Shown: positions 4,931 through 36,383 of the stretch, piece after piece
Layout of the letters: the number at the start of each line of letters is the position of its first letter
Position numbering within the stretch: the first letter of the stretch is position 1
Origin: Anaeroplasmataceae bacterium
GTDB lineage: Bacteria; Bacillota_I; Bacilli_A; Acholeplasmatales; Anaeroplasmataceae
Assembly: GCA_029051735.1 (NCBI GenBank)
Contig: JAIDKZ010000131.1
Coordinates: 1-44,972, forward strand
Direction of reading: 5' to 3'
Length of the DNA: 44,972 nucleotides
The notes under the pieces: generated by a model
The model's database searches: none
Seen by the model: only the letters and a program-made list of their open reading frames with translations
What the model was told of the DNA's origin: nothing
Program-made: the position numbers and the translations under genes

Positions 4931-6043
4931 TTAAACCTCTTTTTGTTTTGTGTAACGTTTTATCCTCACTTCATTATAAGTTTTTGGATGAGAATAATAT
5001 TCAAATAAAGCTTTTTTGGCTTGTGTATTCCCTAGTTTTTCTGAAAAAGATAGTAACTTGATATAATCATCTTCTATAATTTTATTTTTAACAAATTCAG
5101 CAAGTAAGTATCCACTTTCTGGATTATATTTTAAAGTCAAATAGAAATAAAATATTTTTTCTTTTAAAGTTTTACAAGGCATTGTGTAATAAGATAAGTA
5201 ATTTCTTTTTTTAAAATAAAAAATGAGTTTAGACAGGTAATCATCATGTTTTGTATAAGTTTTAAATTCTACATTTTTTTTCACTTTCTCTAAAAGTTTG
5301 GAAACGGGTATATATTTTAATTCTTCTTGTGTATTAGTAAATACTTGAAAAGCTATTTTATAATATTGAGATAAGAAATCTTTTGGAATGTGAACAATAG
5401 GATTTTTAAATCGTTTTAGAAAGTCATTAAATTGATTACTTTTTATATAATCAATGAAATAAAAATCCTCTTTAAAACTTGAATATAGACTGCGATATGT
5501 TTTTCTATGACCTCTTTCAAAATAATCAAAATAAACAATTTCCTCTAAATAAAATCTTTTTTTTAGTTCTGCAAATTCTTTAATTGGCGCAACATCAATC
5601 CAATTGTCCTTATTGGTTAAAATAAAATTATGTCTTTTACAAATTGCCTCTTTTGTTTTTTCTATTGCTCCTTCTATAAAAAAGGTTTCTTGTTTCTTTA
5701 TAATATCCTTATTAAAAATCATTATCTCATCTAAGTCTAATTTCTCTTCTATAAATTCTTTTGTCTTAAGTTCATGAATAATAAATTCTTTTGAAGCCAT
5801 TTGATATCTTGTATCAATTACTCCTGTTTTTTCTTTTCCTTTTGTAATGATAAGGTATTCTAAATTGCGAATTGTACCTTCAATAAATAGATAGACCATA
5901 TACCCTTTAGAAAGAGAAATTTGTTCTTCATTCATAAAAGATTCATACATTGAATTTGAAAGAACAGCTTTTTTATATTTCTCTATTATAACATCATCTG
6001 TTTCTTTAAGCTTATGGATATAGTAATTTTCCAAATTTATCAC
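4931..6043 (-). CDS. Hypothetical protein, downstream of dnaE
   Basis: 370 aa ORF, 22 bp after dnaE; no family recognised; C-terminal helical repeat-like end (SFSEKLGNTQAKKALFEYYSHP). Confidence 0.75.
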   Translation of the reverse strand: MINLENYYIHKLKETDDVIIEKYKKAVLSNSMYESFMNEEQISLSKGYMVYLFIEGTIRNLEYLIITKGKEKTGVIDTRYQMASKEFIIHELKTKEFIEEKLDLDEIMIFNKDIIKKQETFFIEGAIEKTKEAICKRHNFILTNKDNWIDVAPIKEFAELKKRFYLEEIVYFDYFERGHRKTYRSLYSSFKEDFYFIDYIKSNQFNDFLKRFKNPIVHIPKDFLSQYYKIAFQVFTNTQEELKYIPVSKLLEKVKKNVEFKTYTKHDDYLSKLIFYFKKRNYLSYYTMPCKTLKEKIFYFYLTLKYNPESGYLLAEFVKNKIIEDDYIKLLSFSEKLGNTQAKKALFEYYSHPKTYNEVRIKRYTKQKEV

Positions 6044-9020: not shown

Positions 9021-10445
9021 TTATTGTTTTGTTTCTTTTCTTTTTCTATATTTCATAAATACAATTAAACCTAATGTTATTAATGTAATACTTCCAAAAC
9101 ATATACAAAACAATGTCAATTTAAAATCAAAACTCTCTTTTTGATTTTCCGCATATATTGAAACAATAATAGTTTCTGTTGTAGATAAATTTGATGAGTT
9201 TACCACACTAACATTGACAAGATATGTTCCTTCTTTTGTGTAATCCACCAAAGAATCGTTCCACTGAATTTTAGAAGAAACTTGAGGGTCTGATGGATCT
9301 TGCACAGTAATATAATCTAAATAATTTGGCTTTTGCCCAATAGGAATAGAAATGTTCTGTACCAATAGAACTGGCGGCGTAACAGCAAGAAGTTTAACCT
9401 CACATTCAACTACTTTGCTTTTTTCATTTTCTGAAAAGCAATATCTAACTTTATAACTTCCAACCTCAGGTTTAATGTTAGATGCATCAATACTTATCAC
9501 ATTACAAATATCTTTTTTGCCATACAGAGCCTTCTTAATATTATTTTTTAAAGATTCTGTAATATCTTTATTATACTCCAAAATTAATTCTTGATGAAAT
9601 AATTCAATCTCAATTTCATCTTGATTTACAATTTCAACTGTCACAAGAATTATTGATTGATTTCCTTGGTTATCCTTAAAGCTAACCTCTAAATCAAATA
9701 TTCCTTCTTTTGATGTATCAAACTTTGGATACTGAATAGAATGAGTCACATCTCCATCTATTTGATCATAAGCAGTAAAATAATTTATAATATCAGGCAT
9801 TTCACCTTTAGCTAAAATTATATGATTGTTATCTCCTTTGAAAGTAATTATTGGTCCAATAGGGTCTTCTACTTCTAAATCTATTTCTACTATAGTTATA
9901 TTATACCCATCATTTGCTTGAATGTAAACGGGATATTTTCCAGGAATATCATATAAAACGGATGAATCATCTATTATGATTTCACAAGTATTGCTGTTAT
10001 CAACTGCTACTATCTTAGATTTATAATTAGGAAGTGCCTGGCCAATTAAATATTTCAATGATTTGGGATATAAAACAATTTCAGGAGGTTCCTTATCTAC
10101 AACTTTAAATGTGATTAAAGTTTTATAACCTTGACATTGCCCAGGTCTGTATTTCGTTTCAACTGCCTTATACCAAACTTGATATTCTCCAACCTTTGAT
10201 GTATCTACATCTGTTAAAAGATAAAGCCAGTCACCTGTTGGGATATATTCAATTTTAGCATCTGTTAATTCTTTTTGATCTTTAAGAAGCTTAGCCTTAG
10301 GAATATGTATATAATTTTGCAGTGTGCTACCCAAAGGTATTTCAATAGTTGTTGTCTCTTCATCCCAAACAAATAACCATGTGCTTGCTTCAACTTGAAG
10401 ACAAAAGACAAATATTATTAATAAGATTAACCCTACTTTTCTCAT
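9021..10445 (-). CDS. Signal-peptide, Ig-like-repeat surface protein with C-terminal TM anchor
   Basis: N-terminal signal MRKVGLILLIIFVFCLQVEA; repeats such as 'DQIDGDVTHSIQYPKFDTSKEGIFDLEVSFKDNQGNQS' (DUF5011/Ig-like style); C-terminal TM then KYRKRKETKQ; no LPXTG seen. Confidence 0.75.
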   Translation of the reverse strand: MRKVGLILLIIFVFCLQVEASTWLFVWDEETTTIEIPLGSTLQNYIHIPKAKLLKDQKELTDAKIEYIPTGDWLYLLTDVDTSKVGEYQVWYKAVETKYRPGQCQGYKTLITFKVVDKEPPEIVLYPKSLKYLIGQALPNYKSKIVAVDNSNTCEIIIDDSSVLYDIPGKYPVYIQANDGYNITIVEIDLEVEDPIGPIITFKGDNNHIILAKGEMPDIINYFTAYDQIDGDVTHSIQYPKFDTSKEGIFDLEVSFKDNQGNQSIILVTVEIVNQDEIEIELFHQELILEYNKDITESLKNNIKKALYGKKDICNVISIDASNIKPEVGSYKVRYCFSENEKSKVVECEVKLLAVTPPVLLVQNISIPIGQKPNYLDYITVQDPSDPQVSSKIQWNDSLVDYTKEGTYLVNVSVVNSSNLSTTETIIVSIYAENQKESFDFKLTLFCICFGSITLITLGLIVFMKYRKRKETKQ

Positions 10446-11629
10446 CGAAACTTATTCTTTGTTAACCGTTCAAATGCGCGATTGAAATTCTTATATTTCC
10501 CAAGATTAGAACAAATTCGACTTAATTCAATCAAAAAAAATTGAGCTTCAATAGCATTATTTGTTATGGCAAGATTTGGTATAATTACATCACTGATTTC
10601 ATTATAACATTCTATTTCATCTTTTAAAGTTAAATATTGCGCAATGCTTGGACTAAAATCACAATCATAAAATCGTCTTTTATCTAAAGATTCAAAATAT
10701 TTATTATAATTTATTTTATCAAATACATAAATGAAAATTAATCTAGCAAATGGGCGTAATTCCGTATAATAATGTGTTTTTGCTTTCAGATTATTTTCTT
10801 TTAAGTCTAGATAAAATTCTATTGTTCTTAGATAGACCTTTTTTTGCAAATTTTTCATCTGTTGCCTTGCATCATTTATCATAGAATTATTCATCATAAA
10901 AATACAAGAAAGATAGCGTACATAATCGGCCATCTCAAATTCTGTTGAATCCAATAACTCCTTTATTAATTGCTCTGATAAAATTAAGGCTCTTGGATTA
11001 TTAAGTTTTAGATAGCATTGCAAGCAAATCAAATATATAATTTTTTTAATCGTTTCTCCGGTTTCACTATAAGGTCTAGTCATTGTCAAATTATCTAATA
11101 CTTCATGATATTTTTCTTCATAGAAAGATAAAATTGAATGAAATACCATAAATATAATGAGTTCTTCACTAGACATAACACTTGTTATTTTAAAAAGATC
11201 ATTAACAATAAGTGATGCTTCATCTAAACGAAATGTTGCAATATAGAAAATAAGTTGAATCAACTTACTTCTATAATTTTCAAAGCCTTTACACTCCTCA
11301 TAAGCACGACTCAAAAATGTAATATTATTTCTATAAAATTTTTCTACACAATCCATTAATAAATTTTTTAAATTAAATAAAAGGTCAATTTTAGGAACTG
11401 AAAGGTCCAATTTTTTACATATCTCAGTTAGCATTGCTCGATTAGGCTTCATTTTTGCTGTTTCTATTTTACATAAATAAGACACAGAACAAATATTACT
11501 AGAAATCGTTGAGAGTGTCTGAGACTGGTTTATTCTTAGTCTTCTCAACTCTGCGCCTACCATACGATAAGCATTATCATCATTTTTCATCCTTCTTGAG
11601 AATTCATCAATAAAAATACTGTTTTTCAC
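10442..11629 (-). CDS. XRE-family HTH regulator with helical/TPR-like C-terminal region
   Basis: VGAELRRLRINQSQTLSTISSNICSVSYLCKIETAKMKPNRAMLTEICKKLDL HTH. Start revised from 11785 to GTG 11629, preceded by GAGGAG at 6 nt. 3' end overlaps the next gene by 4 bp. Confidence 0.8.
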   Translation of the reverse strand: MKNSIFIDEFSRRMKNDDNAYRMVGAELRRLRINQSQTLSTISSNICSVSYLCKIETAKMKPNRAMLTEICKKLDLSVPKIDLLFNLKNLLMDCVEKFYRNNITFLSRAYEECKGFENYRSKLIQLIFYIATFRLDEASLIVNDLFKITSVMSSEELIIFMVFHSILSFYEEKYHEVLDNLTMTRPYSETGETIKKIIYLICLQCYLKLNNPRALILSEQLIKELLDSTEFEMADYVRYLSCIFMMNNSMINDARQQMKNLQKKVYLRTIEFYLDLKENNLKAKTHYYTELRPFARLIFIYVFDKINYNKYFESLDKRRFYDCDFSPSIAQYLTLKDEIECYNEISDVIIPNLAITNNAIEAQFFLIELSRICSNLGKYKNFNRAFERLTKNKFR

Positions 11630-11668
11630 ATACAACTCCTCAATTAACCACGACCGAATACATTCCCT

Positions 11669-11696
11669 ATTATAAATGGATTTTGTTTGATTGCAA
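11669..11696 (-). promoter_or_regulatory. Promoter for the XRE / Ig-like operon
   Basis: Minus strand TTGCAA (691-696), 16 bp, TATAAT (669-674). Confidence 0.6.
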
Positions 11697-11741
11697 GCAA
11701 TACCTTGTTTGAGAAAAAAAACATTTTTTTCTATGTTAATT

Positions 11742-11927
11742 TTACTTGTAAAGTAATAAGCAAGAAAAAGAATAAATTTGCTCACTATTTATTGCAAAAT
11801 GACTGGTTTGATATAAAATATTTTTAATTTCTATTTTTGGATTCTCTGAAAAAAAATTATTTAAAGCATCTTCCAAATCCTTTTCATGTTCAAAATCAAA
11901 TAACTTTGCCTTCATATTAACACCCAA
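11742..11927 (-). CDS. Cse60-like small sporulation-associated family protein
   Basis: KAKLFDFEHEKDLEDALNNFFSENPKIEIKNILYQTS...EQIYSFSCLLLYK resembles the Cse60 pattern 'FDEEHEKDLE...IDIKY...EQIYCFSALVIY' (from memory). Confidence 0.65.
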   Translation of the reverse strand: MGVNMKAKLFDFEHEKDLEDALNNFFSENPKIEIKNILYQTSHFAINSEQIYSFSCLLLYK

Positions 11928-13214: not shown

Positions 13215-13838
13215 CTAAATAACTTTACGTAACTCCTCATCAAAACCTGTTATGAATGCTTTTTTATTTATAATTTCATGGCGCAATATAACTCTTTCAT
13301 CTAAAGAAGAAAAAAGGATTTCATGTATTGCAGGTGCTTGATTAATTCGCAAAGACTGTATTTTATTTTCTGATATTCCAAGTTCATTTGCCAAAACTTT
13401 TGCTGTTCCACTTGGAGCATCCTTTTTTGTTGTTGCATGAACTTCTATAAAATCCAAAAGTTCAAATTCATTTTTGCAAGATTGTATTAACTTAGAAAAA
13501 AGTTTTATCCCTTTTGCATAATTTGCTTTCCAAACAAAAGGGGTATTTTTTTCTCTAGCTAATTGATTTAATGTATCAATTTCTTCGATTTTATAGCCTG
13601 TTGTTCCGCTTAATATTGGGATTCCTCTATTTAGTCCTTCAAGCAAAACATCAAAGCATTCTACTGAAGAAAAATCAACAATGACATCAACGTTTCCTTC
13701 ACATTCTTTTAGGCTGTTATAGGTTTGAACTACAGGATGCTTAATAAGATCTATTCCAATTATTGTAAACTCATCTTTATAATAATCATACATCCTGCTT
13801 CCCATTTTACCGCAGATTCCTATAATTGCCATTATCAT
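13215..13838 (-). CDS. dapB: 4-hydroxy-tetrahydrodipicolinate reductase (compact)
   Basis: GICGKMG nucleotide motif; LSGTTGYK; IEVHATTKKDAPSGTA. Confidence 0.92.
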   Translation of the reverse strand: MIMAIIGICGKMGSRMYDYYKDEFTIIGIDLIKHPVVQTYNSLKECEGNVDVIVDFSSVECFDVLLEGLNRGIPILSGTTGYKIEEIDTLNQLAREKNTPFVWKANYAKGIKLFSKLIQSCKNEFELLDFIEVHATTKKDAPSGTAKVLANELGISENKIQSLRINQAPAIHEILFSSLDERVILRHEIINKKAFITGFDEELRKVI

Positions 13839-23382: not shown

Positions 23383-24027
23383 CTATGAGGAAATATGCAT
23401 AAGTTTTTTTAAATTCTCTTGAGGATCTAAAGCTTGTACAATATAAGAACCACTAACTGCCAAATCAATATAAGGAAAGACAAGAGGTAGTGTTTCATCA
23501 TTAATTCCTCCATCAATACTAATTAAATAAGAATAATGCTTCTCTTCTTTTTTACTCTTTAAATACTTAACCTTATCAATTGCTGAAGATAAAAAGGCTT
23601 GCCCACCATGTCCAGGATGAACAGACATAATTAAAACCAAATCGACATAAGGTAATATATCTTCTAAGACTTCAACACTTGTATTAGGATTTATACTTAT
23701 TCCAGCTTTAACATGATAACTATGAATAAGTTCAATTATTTCTTTAGGGTTAGTCACTGCTTCATAATGAAATGTAATCATATCACTTCCCGCTTTAACA
23801 AAATCTTCTACATATTTTTCTGGATTACAAATCATCAAATGAGTATCAAAAATAAGATGACTGTTCTTTCTTAAAGATTTAATTAAAGCAGGCCCAAAAC
23901 TAATATTTGGAACAAATCTTCCATCCATCACATCTAAATGTAAATATTTTATATCATTAGAAAACTTGTCTAGATTTGTTTTTATATTTGCATAGTCAAT
24001 AGATAAAATAGATACAGAGATTTCCAT
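23383..24027 (-). CDS. rpe: Ribulose-phosphate 3-epimerase
   Basis: SILSIDYANI, LHLDVMDGRFVPNISFGP, DTHLMI, LIMSVHPGHGGQAF, IDGGINDETLP. Confidence 0.96.
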   Translation of the reverse strand: MEISVSILSIDYANIKTNLDKFSNDIKYLHLDVMDGRFVPNISFGPALIKSLRKNSHLIFDTHLMICNPEKYVEDFVKAGSDMITFHYEAVTNPKEIIELIHSYHVKAGISINPNTSVEVLEDILPYVDLVLIMSVHPGHGGQAFLSSAIDKVKYLKSKKEEKHYSYLISIDGGINDETLPLVFPYIDLAVSGSYIVQALDPQENLKKLMHISS

Positions 24028-24944
24028 TATTTTTTCTCCTTAGTCATAATTTGTTCTAGCATTTTTAAATAATTATTGTATCGCGTAGATAAAATAGATT
24101 GTTTTGCATATGCCTCTTTGATCTGGCATCCTAATGCATTTTTTTGATGAAGGCAATCTTTAAACTTACAATGATAGTTTTTAAATTCCACAAATAAGTC
24201 AGATAATTCATTTTTAGCAATTCCCAAAACATCTAATTTGGAAAATCCTGGAGTATCTCCAATATAGCCTCCCTTATAGGCATACAAAGTAGTTTCTCTT
24301 GTAGTATGCTTTCCTCTTCCAAGAGCAAAACTAATTTCTTGTGTTTTCAATTCAAACTCTGGTAAAATAGCATTAATTAAAGTTGATTTTCCAGCTCCTG
24401 TTTGTCCAGATAGTACTGTGATTTTATTCTCAAGATGCTTTGCTACAATTTCAGTTCCTTCTTTTGTCTTACTATTCACATATAATACATCATATCCTAA
24501 ATTTGTATAATATAGCATCTTTTGTTTTAGTTCATCTAATTCCATTTTCTCAAGCTTATCTATTTTGGTAATTACAATTAATGGTTTTATGTTTTGTCTT
24601 GTTATATTAACAATAAATAAATCTAAAAGATAAAAAGAAAAATCAGGCTCCTTAGCAGCAAAAACTAATAGAATTTGATCTACATTTGAAATATCAGGAC
24701 GAATCAATTCATTTTTACGATTTAAAATGTCAGCAATCATATCATTATCAATACGCACAAGATCTCCAACCTTTGGAGAAAGTTTAATTGTTCGCAAATC
24801 TTCTTTCTTACTAATAGCTTTTTGATTTACTGCTTGCATCTTAATGCTTCTCAGTTTCCCTCTTGCTTTAACACCAATCGTATTTCCATTTTCTAAATCT
24901 ACTTGATATACTCCACCATTTAAATTCGTTATTCGCCCTATCAT
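24027..24944 (-). CDS. rsgA: Ribosome small-subunit GTPase RsgA
   Basis: VITKIDKL, SGQTGAGKSTLINAILPE, DTPGFS, C-X..-CxxH zinc region (YHCKFKDCLHQKNALGCQI). Start revised to ATG 24944. Confidence 0.95.
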   Translation of the reverse strand: MIGRITNLNGGVYQVDLENGNTIGVKARGKLRSIKMQAVNQKAISKKEDLRTIKLSPKVGDLVRIDNDMIADILNRKNELIRPDISNVDQILLVFAAKEPDFSFYLLDLFIVNITRQNIKPLIVITKIDKLEKMELDELKQKMLYYTNLGYDVLYVNSKTKEGTEIVAKHLENKITVLSGQTGAGKSTLINAILPEFELKTQEISFALGRGKHTTRETTLYAYKGGYIGDTPGFSKLDVLGIAKNELSDLFVEFKNYHCKFKDCLHQKNALGCQIKEAYAKQSILSTRYNNYLKMLEQIMTKEKK

Positions 24945-24952
24945 AATTGCTC

Positions 24953-25840
24953 CTATTTCGTTATCCAAAGTATATATTTTGTTCTATTATTATCATATAA
25001 CTTTTGAACCTGAAACGCAACTAATTTATTTGAAATTTCTGAAGAAGAAACATAATTTACTTCTAAATCAAAGTTTAATAATTCAATAACTTGAATAAAC
25101 TCATCTACATTCACAACTGTTGTTTTATCTAAAGATTTTGATACATATAAATCAATTATAGAATTATTATATATACTGATAATTGTATTAGGGGCAGTCG
25201 ATTGATATAAAACTATATCCTCTTCAATTGGTGTTTGATAATAATTAATATTTATTTTGATTTTTGTTTCTTTAAATAAAGCTAATGCATCATCTAAATG
25301 CATTCCTACTAAATTAGGCATAATAAAACTATTTTTGTTAGAAACAATTGTTAATATGAGTTCATCCCCATGATTTAAACTACTTCCATCTACTAAAGAT
25401 TCCCTAATGATGGTTTGTCCTGGCATATCATTATGCTCCTCATACTCAATTTTCAAAATCAACCCATTTTCTTTACACATGCGCTCTATATCTTCTTGAA
25501 CTAATGCATAAATTTGGCCTAAATAACTATGATATGAATTTGGCATGATTTTACCTATATAAACTTCAATTCTATTCCCTTTTTTTATTTTTGTTCCTGG
25601 ATAAGGAATTGTCTTTTTCACAACCTCATCCTTATCTTCTAAATAAGTTATTTGATATTCTATTTTATTTTCTTTTAACAAACTTATTGCTTCTTCTTCT
25701 TTTAAATTCACAATATTTGGTATAGTTAAAATTGTATTATGAAAAATTTTGGGAGAAATAAAGATAAAATATATCCAAATAATAATAATCCCAAAAATCA
25801 CAAGCCACAATCGATAAAAAAGCTTCACATATATCACCAT
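24953..25840 (-). CDS. Single-TM protein with extracellular PASTA-type repeats, no kinase domain
   Basis: N-terminal TM LWLVIFGIIIIWIYFIFI, then PASTA-like repeats: IPNIVNLKEEEAISLLKENKIEYQITYLEDKDEVVKKTIPYPGTKIKKGNRIEVYIGK; FIMPNLVGMHLDDALALFKETKI...; two more divergent repeats. Confidence 0.85.
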   Translation of the reverse strand: MVIYVKLFYRLWLVIFGIIIIWIYFIFISPKIFHNTILTIPNIVNLKEEEAISLLKENKIEYQITYLEDKDEVVKKTIPYPGTKIKKGNRIEVYIGKIMPNSYHSYLGQIYALVQEDIERMCKENGLILKIEYEEHNDMPGQTIIRESLVDGSSLNHGDELILTIVSNKNSFIMPNLVGMHLDDALALFKETKIKININYYQTPIEEDIVLYQSTAPNTIISIYNNSIIDLYVSKSLDKTTVVNVDEFIQVIELLNFDLEVNYVSSSEISNKLVAFQVQKLYDNNRTKYILWITK

Positions 25841-25871: not shown

Positions 25872-25916
25872 GAAAAAAGATGCCTATAAACAGCACTTGT
25901 TTATAAGCATCTTTTA
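25872..25916 (-). terminator. Terminator after rlmN
   Basis: AAAGATGCcTATAAACA-gcact-TGTTTATAaGCATCTTTT hairpin. Confidence 0.75.
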
Positions 25917-25918
25917 TA

Positions 25919-26944
25919 TTATTTCATATGCTTGCTTCTCAGTTGACCACAAGCAGCATCAATGTCTGAGCCTTGTTCTCTTCTCAGTGTAACATTTAAA
26001 CTTCTTTTTTTTAATTGATCATAAAAAGCATGCATGGCGTCTAAGGAAGAACGTTTATAGTGTTTCTCTTTGACCTCATTATAAGGAATCAAATTGATAT
26101 AAACATTTAATCCATGTAATAAATCAGCCAGTTGGTTTGCACATTCTAAAGTATCATTAAAATCCTTTAATAAAATGTACTCTATTGTTACCCTTCGATT
26201 TGTTTTTTTGATATAAAAAGATATCGCTTTAACAAGTTCTTCTAAAGGATAGGCCTTATTAATGGGCATAATCTCATTTCTAAGCTGATTTGTAGGTGCA
26301 TGTAAACTTATTGCTAAATTTACCTGTAAATCAAAATTTGAATAAGAATAAATTTTATCTACTAATCCACAAGTAGAAACTGTAATATGTCGAGCTCCAA
26401 TTTCTAATCCTAAAGGGTAATTGATAATGTGAAGAAATTTCAACACATTTTCATAATTATCAAATGGTTCCCCAATTCCCATAACAACAACATGAGAAAT
26501 TTTAAGACCTGTGATTTGTTCTACCATAAGGATTTGTAAAATCATTTCATATGTTTCTAAATTTCTAAGTTTTTTCTTCATTCCAGATGCACAAAAGGCA
26601 CATCCCATATTACACCCTACCTCTGTAGTCACACAAACACTATATCCATAAACGTGTTTCATTAATACAGTTTCAATTAAATTTCCATCTATTAATCTAA
26701 ATAAAAATTTCATGGTGCCATCTGCACTATTTTGTTGCTGCACAAGTTGAAGTTCATCTAAAACAAAATCATTTTTTAGTGTTTGAAGAAATTCCTTTTT
26801 CATATTTGTGATTTCATTAAAATCTTTTATCTTGTGACGATATAACCACTCAATCAATTGGTTTGCACGAAATGGTTTTGCCTGTATACTTGCTAGATAG
26901 TCTTTTAAATCCTCTATTGTATATCCATAAATGTGTTTCATCAT
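25919..26944 (-). CDS. rlmN: 23S rRNA (adenine2503-C2)-methyltransferase
   Basis: Radical SAM CNMGCAFCASG, VVMGIGEPFDNYENV, SLHAPTNQLRNEIMPIN, REQGSDIDAACGQL. Confidence 0.97.
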   Translation of the reverse strand: MMKHIYGYTIEDLKDYLASIQAKPFRANQLIEWLYRHKIKDFNEITNMKKEFLQTLKNDFVLDELQLVQQQNSADGTMKFLFRLIDGNLIETVLMKHVYGYSVCVTTEVGCNMGCAFCASGMKKKLRNLETYEMILQILMVEQITGLKISHVVVMGIGEPFDNYENVLKFLHIINYPLGLEIGARHITVSTCGLVDKIYSYSNFDLQVNLAISLHAPTNQLRNEIMPINKAYPLEELVKAISFYIKKTNRRVTIEYILLKDFNDTLECANQLADLLHGLNVYINLIPYNEVKEKHYKRSSLDAMHAFYDQLKKRSLNVTLRREQGSDIDAACGQLRSKHMK

Positions 26945-35688: not shown

Positions 35689-36366
35689 TTACTTGCTGGA
35701 ACTTACTTCTTCAATTTCTTTTCCAAATAAAGTAGAAGGATTTACAAATTCATTTTTAACTTTTACTTCTAAATGAACATGTACACCTGCTTCAACATCT
35801 GTAAGAGAAGTGGATGCCTTTCCAATGACTTGTCCAACAGTTACTGTATCATTTACTTTTACAGTTACATTACTTAAAGATGAATACATAGAAACAATTT
35901 CGTCAGAATGCTTAATAGTTACACATACACCATTAAGTTCATCTTCTTCTACTGATGTTACAGTACCATCGTAAATTGAACATACATCAAAAACAGCATT
36001 ATCAGATTTTGCATAACTAATACCCTTTGACTGAATCATATAGCTACCATTCATAATAATAGCAGATTCTAATTCTTCATCAGTTAAAGATAAATCAAAG
36101 AAGGTTCTAACAACTTCATATTCTCCAGTAACAGGAACCATAAATTTGGATTTTACAACTGGAATATTTGGCTTGTTTGAATCATCTGGGTTAAGTACTG
36201 GACCATTTGAATCATCTGGTACATCAGGGGTAGGTTTTGTAACTGGTGTATCTCTTAATGCTAAACTGGCAATAGTAATCACTGTCGCAAATACCACAAC
36301 CACAACTGCTATGAATACTAATAATTCCTTCTTGTCTATGAAAAATCTTTTAATTTTATCTTTCAT
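35689..36366 (-). CDS. spoIIQ: SpoIIQ-like LytM/M23-domain protein
   Basis: N-terminal TM, linker, then degenerate LytM domain (SKGISYAKSDNAVFDVCSIYDGTVTSVEEDELNGVCVTIKHSDEIVSMYSSLSNVTVKVNDTVTVGQVIGKAS...GVHVHLEV); adjacent to spoIIID. ATG 36366 preferred over GTG 36375. Confidence 0.88.
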   Translation of the reverse strand: MKDKIKRFFIDKKELLVFIAVVVVVFATVITIASLALRDTPVTKPTPDVPDDSNGPVLNPDDSNKPNIPVVKSKFMVPVTGEYEVVRTFFDLSLTDEELESAIIMNGSYMIQSKGISYAKSDNAVFDVCSIYDGTVTSVEEDELNGVCVTIKHSDEIVSMYSSLSNVTVKVNDTVTVGQVIGKASTSLTDVEAGVHVHLEVKVKNEFVNPSTLFGKEIEEVSSSK

Positions 36367-36383
36367 TTCTTTCACCTCACTAG

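Follow-up and report, generated by a model that had tools for sequence, protein, structure and literature searches.

A PASTA membrane protein without a kinase occupies the PrkC position in Anaeroplasmataceae that carry peptidoglycan genes

Introduction

Peptidoglycan fragments and lipid II are known ligands of PASTA domains, and kinase-free PASTA proteins as such are annotated in other phyla. Whether PASTA ectodomains are a mere switch for their kinase or work on the wall themselves is a matter on which mutants of model species have given conflicting results. The family Anaeroplasmataceae, to which the DNA analyzed here belongs, is classed as wall-less.

The closest described systems are the PASTA kinases PrkC, StkP and PknB (NF033483), proteins of about 570-650 aa in which a kinase and a juxtamembrane domain are joined, through a transmembrane (TM) helix, to a tandem PASTA ectodomain, and which have PrpC as partner. 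In Bacillus subtilis PrkC, the TM helix alone suffices for septal localization, while, as a counterpoint, the PASTA domains are dispensable for location and activity during exponential growth (PMC5786024). Arg500 in the third PASTA domain of this protein is needed for muropeptide binding (PMC5786024, PMC3601408). In StkP, septal wall thickness is under the control of the PASTA repeats (PMC5786024), which also bring LytB to the septum (PMC8262956). A second known type comprises the class B penicillin-binding proteins (PBPs) SpoVD and PBP2x, which likewise bear extracytoplasmic PASTA domains behind one TM helix. Searches of the open-access literature returned nothing relevant on kinase-less PASTA proteins, and going by those searches a kinase-less PrkC remnant at its native locus is a new variant of the known PASTA kinases.

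The presence of wall genes in Anaeroplasmataceae was described by Field et al., according to whom 40-60% of the family's genomes contain mur genes. They regarded the wall genes as mainly vertically inherited and lost multiple times, leaving open whether those of Anaeroplasmataceae stand for walls or vestiges; PASTA and PrkC go unmentioned in the main text of that study (PMC10868615).

Results

The window, i.e., the whole stretch of 44,972 nucleotides analyzed here, contains the gene row pheT, rlmN, a PASTA protein, rsgA and rpe, with the following features:

23383..24027, minus strand: rpe, next gene downstream (Pfam)
24027..24968, minus strand: rsgA, downstream neighbor (Pfam RsgA_GTPase); its start may be ATG 24944
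24953..25828, minus strand: membrane protein of 291 aa with PASTA repeats and no kinase, starting at GTG 25828 (ribosome-binding site, fixed length, PASTA, dN/dS)
24956..25129, minus strand: fourth, C-terminal unit with PASTA-like topology, residues 234-291 (AlphaFold2 strands and helix, alignment)
25130..25336, minus strand: PASTA unit 3, residues 165-233 (Pfam, AlphaFold2)
25337..25546, minus strand: PASTA unit 2, residues 95-164 (Pfam, AlphaFold2, fold match)
25547..25732, minus strand: PASTA unit 1, residues 33-94 (Pfam, AlphaFold2)
25742..25825, minus strand: transmembrane helix, residues 2-29 (hydropathy, AlphaFold2, genus alignment)
25833..25838, minus strand: Shine-Dalgarno-like GGTGAT a few bases before the start, kept in most relatives
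25875..25915, minus strand: terminator hairpin after rlmN (-21.1 kcal/mol, z -7.2)
25919..26944, minus strand: rlmN, upstream neighbor (Pfam RlmN_N, Radical_SAM)

A first-pass annotation, made from the sequence alone, had described the open reading frame at 24953..25840 (295 aa from ATG 25840) as about 11 residues and a single TM helix followed by PASTA-like repeats, lacking a kinase domain. The frame is present and the helix stands, but the leading residues are fewer: the conserved GGTGAT ribosome-binding site lies just upstream of GTG 25828, and from this codon all ten intact members of the genus encode exactly 291 aa (the eleventh is split over two contigs). Since GTG 25828 is the real start, the predicted cytoplasmic tail comprises only ~6-8 residues (MKLFYRLW), of which RLW is invariant in the genus alignment.

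The repeats were borne out by both profile search and structure prediction. Pfam PASTA (PF03793) matched the frame in three stretches with 86.4 bits (E 1.2e-24, gathering cut-off 23.2), and the Pfam scan found no other family in it and no Pkinase, while the NCBIfam PASTA kinase model PknB_PASTA_kin (NF033483) aligned through its positions 340-563 only, that is, the TM helix and PASTA part, scoring 101.9 bits where the cut-off is 450. The AlphaFold2 model (mean pLDDT 78) consists of a helix at residues 2-29 and four alpha/beta units, and its pTM is just 0.38, as expected of a flexible rod. The top fold matches in Foldseek were the ectodomains of Staphylococcus aureus PrkC (3m9g, E 1.4e-10) and Mycobacterium tuberculosis PknB (5e12, 2.3e-10), and sequence profiles concurred that PASTA-kinase ectodomains are the nearest relatives. 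The fourth unit, an eroded addition relative to these kinases, was missed by Pfam and has a pLDDT of about 65-79 over most of its length; it is highly conserved in the genus alignment (NKLVAFxVQKLYD...KYILWIT), and in a distant relative (L044) it retains a recognizable PASTA-like start (IPDFVG). Thus, a kinase-less PASTA gene at this position is confirmed, and its product differs from PrkC, StkP and PknB in having no kinase, no juxtamembrane domain and no PrpC partner, and from SpoVD and PBP2x in having neither a transpeptidase nor a dimerization domain (its SpoVD match reached only 27.9 bits).

The gene is under purifying selection, with pairwise dN/dS values of 0.05-0.11 among four close species. 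Mean pairwise identity is highest in the tail (0.77) and the TM helix (0.74), compared to 0.62-0.69 in the ectodomain, within which the C-terminal unit ranks first (0.69). No invariant or nearly invariant arginine was found in the ectodomain across the genus alignment.

Upstream, the gap to rlmN measures 78 bp from the ATG, as first noted, or 90 bp from the GTG, and holds the terminator hairpin and no gene. A consensus promoter scan gave matches no more frequent than in shuffled sequences, and phage relatives were looked for and none found.

It had further been proposed that the gene stands in the ancestral order rlmN-prpC-prkC-rsgA-rpe, from which the kinase domain and the PP2C phosphatase gene were lost while the wall-side half was kept, and synteny, Pfam and genome-wide profile searches all agreed with this. 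In an outgroup genome (G161) the row is complete, with rlmN, PP2C, kinase-PASTA, rsgA and rpe overlapping or touching, and its PrkC is matched by our profile A1 at 4.5e-36. In ten of 12 other class-level PrkC loci, prkC lies in the same order between rsgA-rpe and an rlmN far enough away to accommodate prpC; locus L096 has both flanks with a longer rlmN-prkC gap, and at L103 the rsgA-rpe side alone was observed. Full-length PrkC is common in the other families of the class (113 of 397 genomes above cut-off) and was found by profile search in none of the 161 genomes of the order, so the loss of the kinase is neither recent nor local and is older than Anaeroplasmataceae. The simplest account would be that the ancestor of the order lost prpC together with the kinase and juxtamembrane half of prkC, and that the TM helix and PASTA ectodomain were retained as a separate small protein, which we infer to have arisen by truncation rather than replacement.

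Other Bacilli families have kinase-only PrkC-like proteins that are also half a PrkC, but the mirror image of this one. Their frames, families f8, f11 and f21 among them, are about 290-322 aa long and match the kinase model at positions 2-279 only (e.g., G177:C17:28904-29719 and G188:C1:246529-247371).

The first-pass annotation had also suggested pairing with a kinase encoded elsewhere, and called for a search for prkC and prpC outside the locus. This search, by profile, found neither a Hanks kinase (PF00069) nor a PP2C phosphatase (PF13672) in the genome of the window, a draft of 174 contigs that is ~96% complete. Counting this genome and 19 of the 21 others, a Pkinase match was absent from 20 of the 22 genomes carrying the PASTA protein, and the two exceptions, G004 and G023, hold divergent kinases near PP2C genes in cassettes unrelated to PrkC (L167 and L166/L168), which leaves the proposed pairing unsupported. 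In G004, a vWA-like frame, the PP2C gene and the kinase gene lie in a row.

We then surveyed the 161 genomes of the order, counting as carriers those in which the PASTA protein was matched at E below 1e-40. Every one of the 11 genomes of the genus has it, as do 6/28, 3/3 and 1/1 genomes in three further genera of Anaeroplasmataceae, and it is also present in the one genome of another family (G160), in which the gene precedes rsgA and the upstream neighbor differs. Most carriers with enough flanking sequence show the order rlmN-PASTA-rsgA; in G046, ~5.4 kb separate the PASTA gene from rlmN, and in G049, rlmN lies on another contig. PBP transpeptidases (PF00905) were found in exactly these 22 genomes, and the other 139, most of the genomes being draft metagenome assemblies, have neither by profile search. 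Mur-ligase matches number 4 to 17 in the carriers and one in most of the other genomes (two or three in a few), the single match presumably being FolC. In the wall-less relatives the absence is clean, as it could also be read from synteny: rlmN directly adjoins rsgA in 35 of the 35 non-carriers whose locus was read. 'Walled' refers here to the possession of PBP and Mur genes, and in that sense the source genome belongs to a putative wall builder within a group of gut bacteria most of which otherwise lack walls.

Since the 161-genome table is phylogenetically non-independent, we used a tree built from rlmN, rsgA and rpe, on which the joint state switches 7 times, and supported branches force no fewer than five of these switches. 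On well-supported branches alone, an independent-pairs sign test gave p 0.0625 with 5 pairs. We infer loss rather than gain as the direction of the joint changes, in line with Field et al. As a pattern of gene presence, the co-occurrence indicates dependence on peptidoglycan, not mechanism.

Two further families of the order, f2 and f4, gave weak A1 matches (best 3.3e-10) and were set aside, as the loci opened held mostly lipoprotein-like PASTA nucleases elsewhere in the genome and one small lipoprotein. The proteins concerned (L042, L043, L045-L049 and L051) are lipoprotein-like PASTA proteins from PBP-free genomes, and Pfam found PASTA, a lamin-tail domain and a Staphylococcal-nuclease domain in L042, L046 and L048. 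They share with the window's protein a PASTA part without a kinase, but differ in their lipoprotein-like start, lamin-tail and nuclease domains, locus and lack of PBPs in the genome; perhaps the PASTA domains of these apparently wall-less bacteria bind foreign peptidoglycan. Near a small PASTA lipoprotein, L050 (1044-2156, genome G090) encodes what reads in sequence as a Rep-like replication protein with a P-loop.

As for the wall machinery, a single class B PBP was seen in the window's genome; its frame runs off the contig end, SpoVD is its best match (638.7 bits), and it bears a PASTA domain. A close relative (G048) has one SpoVD-type class B PBP and two PBPs assigned, by reading their sequence, to a transglycosylase-transpeptidase-like class, and the window's genome shows the same three kinds of match. 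Within the window, downstream of the atp operon (35689-36375, minus strand), lies the gene of an M23 peptidase-like protein whose nearest model is SpoIIQ (NF053738, 133 bits, below the cut-off of 250), noteworthy as a sporulation gene in a genome affiliated with Mollicutes.

Discussion

The proposal that the protein has a kinase-independent muropeptide or peptidoglycan role was supported in its direction, because the gene co-occurs exactly with PBP genes across the 161 genomes, which links it to peptidoglycan. The muropeptide part fared less well: B. subtilis PrkC needs Arg500, and the lack of any conserved arginine in the ectodomain of the genus alignment would weaken this reading, so that we do not favor an antenna relying on an Arg500-type site. 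From the known biology of the TM helix and PASTA domains in PrkC and StkP, the retained piece is the one able to locate and contact the wall alone, and this, taken together with the PBP set, leads us to favor a factor that scaffolds or positions the synthesis or splitting of septal peptidoglycan. In such a scheme the TM helix would place the protein, probably at the septum, the PASTA rod would contact nascent peptidoglycan or peptidoglycan enzymes, possibly the PBPs, and the protein would thereby adjust where, or how much, synthesis or splitting takes place at the septum. We consider it probable, if by no wide measure, that the protein is a kinase-independent, wall-dependent PASTA scaffold, probably acting at the septal peptidoglycan machinery, and hold with similar moderate confidence that it is a truncated, still working descendant of PrkC.

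The main rival, prompted by the SpoVD-like nature of the sole class B PBP and by the SpoIIQ-like protein of the window, is a spore or germination role, in which the wall genes and the PASTA protein would be kept mainly for endospore peptidoglycan, the protein acting on the cortex or sensing germination muropeptides. Most genomes of Anaeroplasmataceae have been reported to contain sporulation genes (PMC10868615), and B. subtilis PrkC mediates germination in response to muropeptides, though via its kinase activity (PMC5786024), which is what is missing here; the two additional, bifunctional-looking PBPs fit a vegetative wall, and the PASTA locus itself is without sporulation genes, so that we regard this role as unlikely, if worth keeping in mind. 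The superior conservation of the tail and TM helix, with its invariant RLW, could instead point to a sensor passing a peptidoglycan signal to a non-Hanks cytoplasmic partner through the helix or the short tail, but the few cytoplasmic residues, the lack of Hanks kinases in nearly all carriers, with unrelated cassettes in the remaining two, and the absence of PP2C from the window's genome make such a sensor rather improbable.

The missing catalytic half and the erosion of the fourth unit away from PASTA might also suggest a non-functional remnant of a decaying prkC. Such decay is contradicted by the low dN/dS, by the length fixed in ten intact genus sequences and by the retention of the gene across several genera and two families (22 genomes), and we deem it very improbable. 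Hardly any credence is left for an assembly or frameshift artifact that conceals a kinase part still present: the genome is indeed a draft, but the same architecture recurs in all 22 genomes, the 78-90 bp gap to rlmN holds a terminator, and PF00069 is found nowhere in the window's genome.

Returning to the favored scaffold role, it may be taken a step further, and here we are tentative and lean slightly against committing ourselves: the TM and PASTA half of PrkC could be an autonomous, wall-obligate morphogenesis factor, in effect a natural delta-kinase allele, strongly selected wherever peptidoglycan remains and discarded each time it is lost. If true, this would mean that the ectodomain has a structural role it can fulfill independently of phosphorylation. 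The two halves of PrkC have been separated naturally at the native locus in these 22 genomes, and the retained half has been lost along with peptidoglycan genes in what appear to be several separate episodes, which makes the protein a compact marker of the wall-bearing members of Anaeroplasmataceae. The low dN/dS of this extracellular protein also favors working walls over vestiges.

Three other genes of the window drew our attention. A DapB of just 207 aa (13215-13838, minus strand) has both Pfam halves present and points to DAP or lysine synthesis and, possibly, to a DAP-type peptidoglycan. The proteins of 370 and 447 aa encoded at 4931-6043 and 10442-11785 (minus strand) are without a Pfam match, and the latter contains an HTH-like stretch.
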